Part shown: piece after piece, positions 15,734-19,753 of the stretch | How the letters are laid out: every line of letters begins with the position of its first letter | Numbering within the stretch: position 1 is the stretch's first letter | Assembly: GCA_947500135.1 (NCBI GenBank) | Contig: CANMQX010000001.1 | Span: 248,001-312,000, forward strand | From: an uncultured Paracoccaceae bacterium | GTDB lineage: Bacteria > Pseudomonadota > Alphaproteobacteria > Rhodobacterales > Rhodobacteraceae | Length of the DNA stretch: 64,000 nt | Direction: 5' to 3' | Position numbers and translations under genes: made by a program | The notes under the pieces: generated by a model | Told to the model about the DNA's origin: nothing | Databases searched by the model: none | Seen by the model: only the letters and a program-made list of their open reading frames with translations

Positions 15734-15841
15734 CCCCAGATTGACGCCAATTAGCCTTGGTCAAGTTTCGTCAAACAAGCATCACTCGAAATAAAGTTGC
15801 GATTTTCTGCCGTATTGCGACATTTTCTCCACCTTGTGGTG

Positions 15842-15870
15842 TTGACCCCCCTGCAGACGCAGATTAAGTT
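15842..15870 (+). promoter_or_regulatory. Candidate promoter of the ilvIH operon
   Basis: TTGACC at 15842-15847 and TAAGTT at 15865-15870, with a 17-base spacer, fit a sigma-70 promoter (good -35, weak -10). Transcription would begin a few bases before the leader peptide gene at 15893. Confidence 0.5.
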
Positions 15871-15892
15871 CGCGCTACGCAAAGGAACCCCG

Positions 15893-15940
15893 ATGAATAA
15901 CGTCGTACTAATCGTAGGAAAACAGCGCATGGGCCGGTAA
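15893..15940 (+). CDS. ilvIH attenuator leader peptide
   Basis: A 15-codon reading frame, MNNVVLIVGKQRMGR, with an AAAGGA box seven bases before its ATG. Codons 4-8 are Val-Val-Leu-Ile-Val, the three end products of the pathway encoded downstream, which is the hallmark of a translation-controlled attenuator. The end of the frame (GCGCATGGG, 15925-15933) is complementary to CCCATGCGC (15959-15967), which touches the terminator. Ribosome stalling at the Val/Leu/Ile run when charged tRNAs are scarce would change which hairpin forms. The peptide itself probably has no other role. Confidence 0.78.
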   Translation: MNNVVLIVGKQRMGR

Positions 15941-15967
15941 CGGTGAAACCATAACGATCCCATGCGC
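15925..15967 (+). promoter_or_regulatory. Upstream hairpin of the ilvIH attenuator
   Basis: GCGCATGGG (15925-15933) pairs perfectly with CCCATGCGC (15959-15967). The 5' arm lies inside the leader peptide codons and the 3' arm shares one base with the terminator stem. It may be the antiterminator or the pause hairpin; with so little overlap the exact switch is not settled by inspection. Confidence 0.6.
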
Positions 15968-15992
15968 CCCCGACATCCTCGGGGGTTTTTTT
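15967..15992 (+). terminator. Attenuator terminator before ilvI
   Basis: CCCCCGA (15967-15973) pairs perfectly with TCGGGGG (15979-15985), loop CATCC, followed by seven Ts. It is a canonical Rho-independent terminator placed between the leader peptide and ilvI (start 16033). Confidence 0.88.
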
Positions 15993-16032
15993 GTGACTGA
16001 ACGAAAACACTGACGCGAAGGACGCGAGAAAA

Positions 16033-17787
16033 ATGACAAAAGCCATGACGGGCGCAAAAATGGTCGTACAAGCTCTGATAGATCAGGGCGTGGACGTCGT
16101 CTTTGGTTACCCCGGTGGCGCCGTCCTACCGATCTATGACGAGATCTTTCAGCAAAACCACATCCAGCACGTATTGGTGCGCCATGAACAAGGCGCCGTT
16201 CACGCAGCCGAAGGGTATGCGCGGGCGACCGGCAAACCGGGCGTTGCACTGGTCACATCTGGACCCGGCGCCACGAACGCGGTGACCGGTCTGACCGATG
16301 CGCTGATGGACTCAATTCCGATCATCGTGCTGACCGGTCAGGTGCCGACCTTCATGATCGGCTCTGACGCGTTTCAAGAGGCCGACACCGTCGGCATCAC
16401 CCGCCCCTGCACCAAACATAACTGGCTGGTGAAAGAGACGGATAAACTGGCCTCTGTCATGCACGAGGCATTCCACATCGCCACATCCGGCCGCCCCGGC
16501 CCGGTTGTCATCGACATCCCCAAGGATGTGCAATTCGCCACCGGCAAATACACCGAGGCGCGGCAGGTCGAAACCCATTACGCCCCGCAGGTCAAAGGCG
16601 ACATGGAGATGATCACCGAACTGGCCAAGGCAATGGAAACGGCCAAGCGGCCGGTTTTCTACACAGGCGGCGGCGTGATCAATTCCGGCCCGGCGGCCAG
16701 CCAATTGCTGCGCGAACTGGTGGCGGCGACCGGCTTTCCGATCACCTCCACACTGATGGGGCTGGGCAGCTATCCGGCCTCTGGCGACAACTGGATCGGC
16801 ATGCTGGGGATGCATGGGCTGTACGAGGCCAACATGGCCATGCATGACTGCGATCTGATGATCAATATCGGCGCGCGATTCGACGACCGGATCACCGGAC
16901 GGCTGGACGCGTTCAGCCCCGGTTCCACCAAGGCACATATCGACATCGACGCCTCATCGATCAACAAGGTGATCAAGGTCGACATCCCGATCCTGGGCGA
17001 TTGCGCCCATGTGTTAGAGGATTTGCTGAACGTCTGGAAATCCCGCGGCCGCAAGACTGATAAGGAAAATGTCACCAAATGGTGGCACCAGATCAATGAA
17101 TGGAAAAAGGTCGATTGCCTGAAGTTCAAGCAGGAAGGCAAAGTTATCAAGCCGCAATACGCACTGGCGCGGTTGGAAGAACTGACCAAAAAACATGATC
17201 GCTACATCTGTACCGAGGTTGGCCAGCACCAGATGTGGGCGGCGCAATATCTGGGGTTCGAGGACCCGAACCGCTGGATGACTTCCGGCGGGTTGGGCAC
17301 CATGGGCTACGGCTTCCCCGCTTCGATCGGTGTGCAGATGGGCCATCCGGACGCGCTCGTGATCAACGTCGCGGGCGAGGCCTCATGGCTGATGAACATG
17401 CAGGAACTGGGCACGGCGATGCAATATCGGCTGCCGGTCAAGCAGTTCATCCTGAACAATGAACGGCTGGGCATGGTGCGGCAATGGCAGGAACTGCTGC
17501 ATGGGGAACGCTATTCCTCCAGCTGGTCCGAAAGCCTGCCCGATTTCGTCAAACTGGCAGAGGCGTTTGGTGCCAAGGGCATCCAATGCCAAGACCCCGA
17601 CAGCCTGGACGACGCGATCATGGAAATGATCACCCATGACGGCCCAGTCCTGTTCGACTGTCTGGTGGAAAAGCACGAAAACTGCTTCCCCATGATCCCG
17701 TCAGGCAAGCCGCATAACGAAATGCTGCTGGGCGAAAACGCGGACGTCGCCAACGCGATCAAATCCGATGGGGCGGTGATGGTCTGA
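16033..17787 (+). CDS. ilvI: Acetolactate synthase, large (catalytic) subunit
   Basis: A 584-residue thiamine-diphosphate enzyme joining pyruvate with pyruvate or 2-oxobutyrate, the first common step of Val, Leu and Ile synthesis. TPP-binding N-domain with the catalytic Glu in RHEQGAVHAAEGYARATG (about residue 52), central FAD-type domain (LMGLGSYP, IGARFDDRITG), and C-terminal TPP domain. The metal-binding motif reads GEASWLMNMQEL (448-459), with Glu where the classic motif has Asp. Preceded by an attenuator; the regulatory subunit ilvH lies 1.4 kb downstream behind an inserted gene. Confidence 0.96.
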   Translation: MTKAMTGAKMVVQALIDQGVDVVFGYPGGAVLPIYDEIFQQNHIQHVLVRHEQGAVHAAEGYARATGKPGVALVTSGPGATNAVTGLTDALMDSIPIIVLTGQVPTFMIGSDAFQEADTVGITRPCTKHNWLVKETDKLASVMHEAFHIATSGRPGPVVIDIPKDVQFATGKYTEARQVETHYAPQVKGDMEMITELAKAMETAKRPVFYTGGGVINSGPAASQLLRELVAATGFPITSTLMGLGSYPASGDNWIGMLGMHGLYEANMAMHDCDLMINIGARFDDRITGRLDAFSPGSTKAHIDIDASSINKVIKVDIPILGDCAHVLEDLLNVWKSRGRKTDKENVTKWWHQINEWKKVDCLKFKQEGKVIKPQYALARLEELTKKHDRYICTEVGQHQMWAAQYLGFEDPNRWMTSGGLGTMGYGFPASIGVQMGHPDALVINVAGEASWLMNMQELGTAMQYRLPVKQFILNNERLGMVRQWQELLHGERYSSSWSESLPDFVKLAEAFGAKGIQCQDPDSLDDAIMEMITHDGPVLFDCLVEKHENCFPMIPSGKPHNEMLLGENADVANAIKSDGAVMV

Positions 17788-17976: not shown

Positions 17977-19161
17977 ATGATCGAAGTAAGCGACGGGCGT
18001 CGTCTCTGCCTATGGTTGGCTTGGCTGAATGTGGTTGCTGGCCTTCTACTTTTGGCAGCATTCGCGACCAACGGTATTGATCGCCCTGAAACAGGCGATT
18101 GTACGGAAAAGGTTATCGATTTCCACGTCTTCTGGGCCGCCGGCGGTTTTGGGATCCAGGGCACGCCACTGCTTGCCTTTGATCAGGACGCGCTGCGCGC
18201 AGCCTATGGTACTTGTTCAACGAAATGGCTGCCTTGGGTACATCCTGCACCCGCCATGGCACTTCTTGCGCCGTTTGCTATGTTGCCATTCCTTCCAGCA
18301 TGGGGGCTATTCAACGCCGTCTCACTCACAGCACTTGCGGCAGCACTGCCCACCTTCACCGGGCACCGTAGTGGAGTGTTCGTCGCCACCCTGCTCGCCC
18401 CCGCAATGCTGCCCGCGCTCATGGCAGGGCAATTTAGCTTGCTGTGGATTGCTGGTTTGCTTGGAGCAATTGCGGCCATACGGGCAGATCGACCTATATT
18501 CGCGGGCTTACTGATCGGTTGCCTGACGATCAAGCCGACACTTGGTTTGCTGATCCCTGCGGCACTGGTTGCGGTTTGGGCATTCCGCACCATCATCGTC
18601 GCTGGCCTGACATCCATAACGATCCACGCAGGTGCAATTCTATACTATGGGGCGGACTACTGGTCTACTTGGCGCGATGTCTCAGCGTATCACGCCATCG
18701 GCAACATAAATGAACTGGGCAACCTCGATAAGATGACAAGTATCTCCGCTGCCCTTTCGCGCCTCGGAATTGAGCCTCAAACGGGCGTTGCCTTAAATCT
18801 AGGCCTTGCTTTGCTGCTGGTGGTGGTGGTGTTTGTTGTCTGGCGTAAATATACGGTTCACTCCGACATTGCTGTAGGCGTTCTGTTTGCGGCCATCCCC
18901 GTCGCAACACCCTATCTTTGGTATTACGATGTCGCATTTCTCGCTATCGCCGCGATGTTTCTGCTCAAGGCCAAAAAATTTACGATCGGGCCAGTGTTCG
19001 GCATCGCTGTATTTGTCGCGTGGCTCGGACCCGGACTTTCTGTCTGGTACGCCGCGACAATCGGCGATGGCACACTTCTTCCCCCCGTTTTTTTCATCCC
19101 CCCTGTGCTGCTTCTGACCCTTGGTTTATGCCTCGCCCAGACAACCCGCGGCACACCTTAA
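17977..19161 (+). CDS. GT87/DUF2029-type polytopic glycosyltransferase
   Basis: A 394-residue membrane protein with about ten hydrophobic segments. The first large loop has the acidic FHVFWAAGGFGIQG region (about 50-63) and later segments carry YYGADYWSTWRDVSAYH (about 227-243), as in the DUF2029 / glycosyltransferase family 87, whose members use polyprenyl-phosphate sugars (for example mannose) outside the membrane. ATG 17977 follows a GGGGGGA box. It stands between ilvI and ilvH, which normally adjoin, and its codon choice looks less GC-biased than its neighbours. That suggests insertion by transfer. Its acceptor is unknown. Confidence 0.75.
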   Translation: MIEVSDGRRLCLWLAWLNVVAGLLLLAAFATNGIDRPETGDCTEKVIDFHVFWAAGGFGIQGTPLLAFDQDALRAAYGTCSTKWLPWVHPAPAMALLAPFAMLPFLPAWGLFNAVSLTALAAALPTFTGHRSGVFVATLLAPAMLPALMAGQFSLLWIAGLLGAIAAIRADRPIFAGLLIGCLTIKPTLGLLIPAALVAVWAFRTIIVAGLTSITIHAGAILYYGADYWSTWRDVSAYHAIGNINELGNLDKMTSISAALSRLGIEPQTGVALNLGLALLLVVVVFVVWRKYTVHSDIAVGVLFAAIPVATPYLWYYDVAFLAIAAMFLLKAKKFTIGPVFGIAVFVAWLGPGLSVWYAATIGDGTLLPPVFFIPPVLLLTLGLCLAQTTRGTP

Positions 19162-19186: not shown

Positions 19187-19753
19187 ATGTCACCGCTAAA
19201 AATCAAGAAAGGCGCCACCAGTCATTCCGCCTATGACCTCCGGCCTAACTTTTCGGACAAGGAAGAACAGCACACGTTGGCCATTCTGGTCGAAAACGAA
19301 CCGGGTGTTCTATCCCGCGTCATCGGGCTTTTCGCCGGGCGCGGCTACAATATCGACAGCCTGACCGTGGCAGAGGTGGACCATCTGGGCCACCGGTCAC
19401 GGATCACCATCGTCACCACAGGCACGCCACAGATCATCACCCAGATCAAGGCGCAGCTGGGCCGGATCGTCGATGTCCACAAGGTCAATGACCTGACCGT
19501 CGAAGGGCCATCAGTGGAACGCGAACTGGCCCTGTTCAAGGTCGTTGGCACCGGTGATCACAGGATCGAAGCCGTCCGTCTCGCTGATATATTTAGGGCA
19601 AATGTGGTTGATAGCACATTGGAATCATTTGTTTTTGAAATCACGGGCACGTCCGAGAAAATCGACGCCTTCGCCGAACTCATGCAGCCTTTGGGGCTGG
19701 AAGAAATCGCGCGGACCGGTGTGGCCGCACTGTCACGCGGATCAGACACCTGA
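19187..19753 (+). CDS. ilvH: Acetolactate synthase, small (regulatory) subunit
   Basis: A 188-residue protein with an N-terminal ACT domain (about 25-100; LAILVENEPGVLSRVIGLFAGRGYNIDSLT) that binds valine for feedback control and activates the large subunit. The C-terminal half (about 105-180) has the family FRANVVDSTLESFVFEITG stretch. ATG 19187 sits behind GAAAGGA; the frame extends back to 19121 only inside the preceding gene. It begins 25 bases after the GT87-type gene. A hairpin follows the stop. Confidence 0.95.
   Translation: MSPLKIKKGATSHSAYDLRPNFSDKEEQHTLAILVENEPGVLSRVIGLFAGRGYNIDSLTVAEVDHLGHRSRITIVTTGTPQIITQIKAQLGRIVDVHKVNDLTVEGPSVERELALFKVVGTGDHRIEAVRLADIFRANVVDSTLESFVFEITGTSEKIDAFAELMQPLGLEEIARTGVAALSRGSDT

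Follow-up and report, generated by a model that had tools for sequence, protein, structure and literature searches.

Side-by-side hairpins in a conserved branched-chain amino acid leader upstream of ilvI: a predicted transcription attenuator of Rhodobacteraceae

The window (the whole 64,000-nucleotide stretch analysed here, from an uncultured Paracoccaceae bacterium) contains an ilvI gene and its leader; the leader elements and the three genes described below lie on its + strand. ilvI (16033..17787) encodes the large subunit of acetohydroxyacid synthase (AHAS) and carries three TPP-enzyme domains (Pfam TPP_enzyme_N, _M, and _C). It is followed by a gene of the GT87 family (17977..19161; Pfam PF09594, E 3.5e-17) and by ilvH (19187..19753), which encodes the AHAS small subunit (Pfam ALS_ss_C and ACT_AHAS_ss). 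The AHAS of the window was searched in 60 related genomes and gave a match in 51; a same-genus set of 30 loci, comprising the window and 29 others, was used for close comparison, with three more full-length same-genus matches left out. ilvH lies downstream within 27 of the 30 same-genus stretches examined, and a GT87 gene is found between ilvI and ilvH in four (L001, L002, L003, and L008). ilvI and ilvH share a strand and are presumably co-transcribed, although the GT87 gene intervenes here.

The region 5′ of ilvI had been interpreted as a transcription attenuator in a sequence-only reading, and the promoter pair, leader frame, ribosome-binding box, codon run, hairpin, and terminator listed there were all located. 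The probable promoter (15842..15869), assigned from its sequence and conservation, consists of a -35 TTGACC (15842-15847) and a -10-like TTAAGT (15864-15869). A Shine-Dalgarno (SD)-like AAAGGA (15881..15886), placed by sequence and by alignment with relatives, precedes the 15-codon leader peptide frame MNNVVLIVGKQRMGR (15893..15940), which starts with ATG at 15893 and stops with TAA at 15938-15940. Codons 4-8 of this frame (15902..15916) read GTC GTA CTA ATC GTA and specify Val-Val-Leu-Ile-Val; they are considered the regulatory codons from the sequence and its relatives. Eight bases separate the last of them from a 9-bp hairpin, H1, the position expected of an antiterminator. The 5′ arm of H1, GCGCATGGG (15925..15933), codes for the end of the leader peptide, and the 3′ arm, CCCATGCGC, occupies 15959..15967. 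A small hairpin between the arms, Hs (15934..15943; CCG-GUAA-CGG), holds the stop codon in its GUAA loop. The intrinsic terminator (15967..15992) is formed by CCCCCGA (15967-15973) and TCGGGGG (15979-15985), followed by seven T residues (15986-15992). H1 and the terminator meet at the boundary bases GC (15966..15967), which, by geometry and footprint folding, can pair either with the H1 5′ arm (C15926 and G15925) or in the terminator (U15986 and G15985). A single shared base had been reported previously; there are two, G15966 and C15967, once the G·U pair G15966.U15986 is counted. The folding energy of a 141-nt stretch was only moderately better than that of shuffled sequences (z -2.05, with 7/200 shuffles equally good), so the case was built on comparison. 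An Rfam scan of the window brought no family to its cut-off, and so gave no known riboswitch or leader; the leader itself matched Atu_C8 (RF02502) best, though weakly, with 32.2 bits at 15892-16002 against a cut-off of 50. Directly 5′ of the promoter, at 15797-15829, TTGCGA occurs twice, each time followed by TTTTCT, with the copies 18 bp apart. By eye, loci of the same genus show similar sequence there, and the pair might be an operator.

The leader frame, H1, and terminator are retained in all 30 same-genus loci, window included. The exact pattern of these three elements is present in 29, and the remaining locus (L030) keeps the architecture with one G·U pair in H1; the letters of H1 are identical in 29/30. 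TTGACC stands at the same place in 30/30 of these loci, and TTGAC in 69 of 71 loci from other genera. Conservation was followed further in a family set of 248 genomes, one per genus and including that of the window. The exact H1 pattern was found in 147 of them, a few of which are clearly not leaders (e.g., G614 and G627), and a backwards-read control pattern gave none among the matches listed. In the class, the exact pattern was found in 10/385 genomes, five of these from the family of the window. A parser applied to 113 loci recovered the pattern in 112, with ilvI located 46-137 nt downstream in 106/112 (99 distinct cores); the exceptions are L087, L093, L094, L095, L096, and L100. As these parsed loci and the exact-pattern counts show, H1 is nearly invariant in sequence, beyond what its pairing requires. 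A covariance model, R1, was built from 80 leaders (9 same-genus and 71 others) and matched 213 of the 248 family genomes at E values up to 0.01, including six weak matches with E above 1e-4; 35 genomes gave no match in this search. A scan for this leader ahead of AHAS genes in other families covered 29 class loci (L058-L086), of which only L058 and L059 carried it; both belong to the family of the window. The AHAS genes at L079 and L080, from another family, have a different branched-chain amino acid (BCAA) frame (MSLLIVPCAPNEGLA and MSKILVPRAPFLGRT, respectively) ahead of a terminator.

The exact-pattern set is unfit for testing H1 because its members were selected by the H1 pattern, and covariation was therefore assessed in the 68 family genomes that have an R1 match without the exact pattern. 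Leaders were taken from 55 of these, and 45 form alignment A3; several of the eleven weaker leaders are degenerate. In A3, 10/18 pairs change on both sides (29 cells), a value reached in 0/500 shuffles, and sliding the 3′ partners as a control left only 2-5 such pairs. The compensatory changes fall in all three helices, with five pairs in H1, two of the three pairs in Hs, and three in the terminator; because A3 was fitted to R1, these numbers lean towards the model. Hs was also compared with shuffles: the stop codon lies inside a hairpin of at least 3 bp in 126/128 leaders, compared to 79/128 with shuffled flanks. A possible third hairpin in the H1 loop is suggested by 62/128 segments that fold below -1 kcal/mol, with a mean 0.90 kcal/mol better than shuffles.

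For codon and folding counts, 137 leaders were parsed and 128 kept. The nine dropped comprise weak matches with poor parses (L214, L215, L219, L220, L221, L222, and L223) and two leaders with misparsed terminators (L191 and L208); the frame of L208 stops before H1, a case against the rule. A leader frame is present in all 128 kept leaders. Counted from the stop codon, positions -12 to -8 encode Val, Ile, or Leu in 88-98% of leaders, compared to 26% at -13 and 5% at -7, so that by codon counts in the predicted frames the leaders offer a short frame with end-product codons whose position relative to the hairpin is tuned. Codon choice is also skewed when the family-wide leaders are set against the 36 ORFs of the one window: GTA makes up 50% of leader Val codons versus 6%, CTA 38% versus 4%, and GGA 74% of leader Gly codons versus 7.5%. 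An earlier paper considers codon bias in the leaders of attenuators (PMC1183508). A Gly codon follows the BCAA block (15917-15919 in the window; codon -7) in 76/128 leaders and is GGA in 60. The motif TGCG, which echoes the 3′ arm of H1, lies at most 20 nt past the terminator stem in 45/128 leaders (a raw count) and is absent in the window.

The overlap of H1 and the terminator was determined in the 137 parsed leaders over a search range of -7 to +6. Two nucleotides are shared in 53 leaders, three in 69, and another number in 15, some of which are misparses; the bases involved are GC or GCC in most cases. The two hairpins are thus adjacent and share a few bases at their feet, and the trp-type arrangement, with a long antiterminator that occupies a large part of the terminator 5′ arm, was not found. 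In 122/137 leaders, this agrees with the suspicion in the sequence-only reading that the switch differs from a classic overlapping antiterminator. The effect of a ribosome was modeled by folding the leaders with a footprint that began 12 nt before the first P-site base and ended 15 nt past it. Over 128 leaders, the mean probability of the terminator closing pair was 0.35, 0.28, 0.31, and 0.29 with A-site codons -12, -11, -10, and -9, respectively, and 0.89-0.92 with any A-site codon from -8 through the stop. The difference between the at-stop and stalled states exceeded 0.2 in 105/128 leaders and was reversed in sign (below -0.05) in 2/128. For the window, the value was 0.00-0.13 with the ribosome at codons 4-7 and reached 0.92 once it had moved to codon 8; the conserved codon 8 is ineffective in the folding model. 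In the predicted folding, therefore, a waiting ribosome favors an alternative structure. The terminator core also forms when the ribosome is stalled (mean 0.82), and since it forms in both states, only its foot is contested. The closing pair is likewise low without a ribosome (0.31), and in three of five relatives viewed singly its stalled value stays high (L112, 0.82; L114, 0.77; L059, 0.58). Equilibrium folding without RNA polymerase is only a proxy, and it ignores the order of synthesis, which should favor H1. A longer competing helix was not seen in a non-exhaustive search for alternative helices.

Collectively, the conserved frame, BCAA codon block, H1, terminator, and promoter, together with covariation, support the attenuator proposed from the sequence, and ilvI is very probably subject to ribosome-mediated transcription attenuation. 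The leader frame and terminator persist in relatives, the reverse of what would have spoken against that proposal, and the terminator between leader and first gene is conserved and covarying, with its activity predicted from sequence. Poor charging of Val, Leu, or Ile tRNAs would raise expression of ilvI, and probably of ilvH too. With ample amino acids, the ribosome would reach the stop codon and cover Hs and the 5′ arm of H1; with H1 blocked, the terminator would close down to the U tract, and transcription would end before ilvI. When charging is low, the ribosome would wait at codons 4-7, just 5′ of H1, and H1 could form ahead of synthesis of the terminator 3′ arm, holding the boundary bases, which are GC in the window and GCC in many relatives. 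Deprived of its basal pairs, the terminator would then let RNA polymerase read on. The contest would be over two or three boundary bases instead of a long shared strand, and we consider it the probable, though by no means certain, main switch of the ilvI attenuator.

Leaders resembling that of ilvI were also found before transporter genes. R1 matched 34/385 class genomes, five of them from the family of the window. Fifteen loci outside the family were read, with weaker R1 places in the class left out; 11 (L229-L239) precede a gene for an MFS protein about 400 aa long, and the remaining four (L240-L243) appear to be chance matches. For six MFS proteins (from five of the L229-L239 loci and from L031), the best NCBIfam match was Bcr/CflA in every case, five above the cut-off and that of L235 just below. 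An MFS alignment scan of named genomes, covering the best 80 of 296 relatives, placed an R1 match just 5′ of the MFS gene in 49/80. The 49 include Pelagibius, Bradyrhizobium, Devosia, Pelagibacterium, and Paraburkholderia (two records), along with some Rhodobacteraceae records. The transporter leaders (L229-L239, L031, and 49 of L249-L328) are built from a Val-rich frame, H1, a stop codon in a hairpin, and a terminator, and the distance to the MFS match downstream is about 10-180 nt. Their covariation is weaker than in ilvI leaders, with both-side changes in 7/18 pairs and 25/500 shuffles reaching that value. The genome of the window encodes an MFS homologue (44% identity), and R1 gave no match upstream of it, where no such leader was seen.

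Eleven of the 49 transporter leaders have the Atu_C8 form. The Rfam entry, labeled "Rhizobiales sRNA," resembles the window leader in its Val-rich frame, an H1 of GCGCATGGG/CCCATGCGC, a stop codon in the inner hairpin, and a terminator; it differs in that H1 stands 6-9 nt off the terminator and the inner hairpin is longer, and the window scores below its cut-off. H1 and the terminator do not overlap in any of the 11. The Atu_C8 cut-off was exceeded in 12 of 15 loci submitted, namely the 11 and L031 (L031, L272, L296, L304, L308, L311, L312, L313, L316, L320, L321, and L328). Because all 12 stand directly 5′ of an MFS gene, Atu_C8 looks like a leader, and the loci seen suggest that it belongs to a transporter gene as its leader and is not a free-standing sRNA. 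The footprint model predicts no switch for the Atu_C8-form leaders (0/11 above 0.2; 5/11 below -0.05) and a weak one for the other transporter leaders (13/36 above 0.2; 4 below -0.05). With the switch weak or absent in transporter leaders, boundary competition fails to explain the wider group.

These leaders bear on a different account of the ilvI switch, in which H1 and its inner hairpin, formed behind RNA polymerase, oppose termination on their own, either by obstructing the exit channel sterically or by contacting the polymerase, and the shared boundary is only incidental. The Atu_C8-type leaders keep codons, H1, and terminator even though 6-9 nt separate their H1, of the same sequence, from the terminator, without overlap (11/11) or a predicted switch (0/11), and the near invariance of the H1 sequence, not just of its pairing, points the same way. 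Such a device would need no boundary, yet 2-3 nt are kept in 122/137 ilvI leaders, and the Atu_C8-type leaders may use another pairing; we know of no RNA polymerase contact for a module of the H1 type. On balance, we regard this account as unlikely, while giving it some weight. A broader reading is held with similar reserve: a portable RNA module, made of a Val-codon leader, a near-invariant H1, and a stop codon in the inner hairpin, might conceivably serve as a ribosome-gated antitermination device that needs no strand overlap. Its target would be BCAA synthesis in Rhodobacteraceae and, in other Proteobacteria, where one form of it is entered in Rfam as a free sRNA, a transporter of the Bcr/CflA family.

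Three further accounts appear very improbable. The commonest textbook attenuator uses a long overlapping antiterminator, and this, together with the non-exhaustive search for alternative helices, leaves slight room for such a hairpin, or a protector hairpin, so far unfound. However, H1 and the terminator explain the states inspected when the window leader and five relatives were folded with a footprint, the strongest complementarity between the codon block and the terminator is the one used by H1, and relatives keep H1 and its boundary; a hidden classic design is hardly to be expected. The minimum-free-energy fold of the window contains a helix between the SD region (15881-15893) and the terminator 3′ arm and U tract (15978-15992), by which an untranslated leader could be antiterminated or the terminated RNA silenced. 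Duplex energies are slightly better than those of shuffles, with mean z -1.29 in 30 same-genus loci and -1.48 in 69 other loci, and z below -2 in 6/30 and 28/69, respectively. Purine-rich SD sequences nevertheless pair easily with the G- and U-rich ends of terminators (z -1.95 in the window), an initiating ribosome would cover the SD, and the helix can arise only late, once the terminator 3′ arm has been made; it is a poor candidate for the true alternative structure. There is as little reason to suppose that the leader serves chiefly to make a short terminated RNA or a peptide that acts in trans, with control of ilvI secondary. The listing of the related Atu_C8 among sRNA genes in Rfam would fit this idea, as would the report that an attenuator RNA of Sinorhizobium meliloti, rnTrpL, and its peptide, peTrpL, act in trans (PMC7298713). 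Against it, the element stays before ilvI (106/112) or an MFS gene (49/80, among the best 80 of 296 relatives). The conserved end of the peptide, RMGR, lies outside the codon block and coincides with the H1 sequence; its Arg is replaced by Cys in 6/128 leaders, and L204 and L183 keep H1 pairing despite the change. The contest for the boundary bases is the account we favor over all of these.

A side-by-side arrangement has a precedent in Corynebacterium glutamicum ilvBNC, where an adjacent antiterminator and terminator are reported to overlap at a boundary GCC, with mutational support (PMC11857589). The likeness extends to an AHAS operon, a leader peptide with BCAA codons, and the contest for GCC between the two hairpins (PMC11857589 and PMC10272879). 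C. glutamicum belongs to another phylum, and its leader as described there has three hairpins, including an anti-antiterminator that takes up the leader start (PMC11857589); no counterpart of that hairpin was found in the window leader. By this analogy, the two leaders appear to share a design, and common descent is not claimed. Control of AHAS genes by leaders in alphaproteobacteria is already known from Caulobacter ilvBN (PMC4117421), an ilvB leader peptide (PMC1273637), and an "ilvIH cis regulatory" element of S. meliloti (PMC2573895). These share class, kind of gene, and leader peptide attenuation with the window leader, a likeness by description, not by anatomy. A cysS leader, motif uORFC-8-2, is likewise a leader attenuator and comes from the same taxonomic order, Rhodobacterales; it differs by Cys codons inside the first stem and by the gene controlled (PMC8632094). 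Among the matches listed in a literature search, with most subscription papers outside its scope, none dealt with the structure of a Rhodobacteraceae ilvI leader or with a BCAA leader before a Bcr/CflA gene.

The trp, leu, and ilv leaders of Escherichia coli combine end-product codons with an intrinsic terminator and use the stalled ribosome as sensor, and their antiterminators take up much of the terminator arm. The family described here follows the same leader-peptide logic and differs by its overlap of 2-3 nt. A 2004 survey of proteobacterial attenuators and a 1994 Caulobacter paper, both cited elsewhere, may cover part of what is described here. The transporter leaders raise the question of why a transporter of a drug-efflux family should be placed under valine codons. 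If the boundary contest is correct, the ilvI attenuator would work with hardly any strand exchange, through competition for two or three bases. A contest of this kind kept throughout the family, and matched by the GCC reported from an unrelated phylum, would then represent a repeated minimal design, testable by simple mutations.
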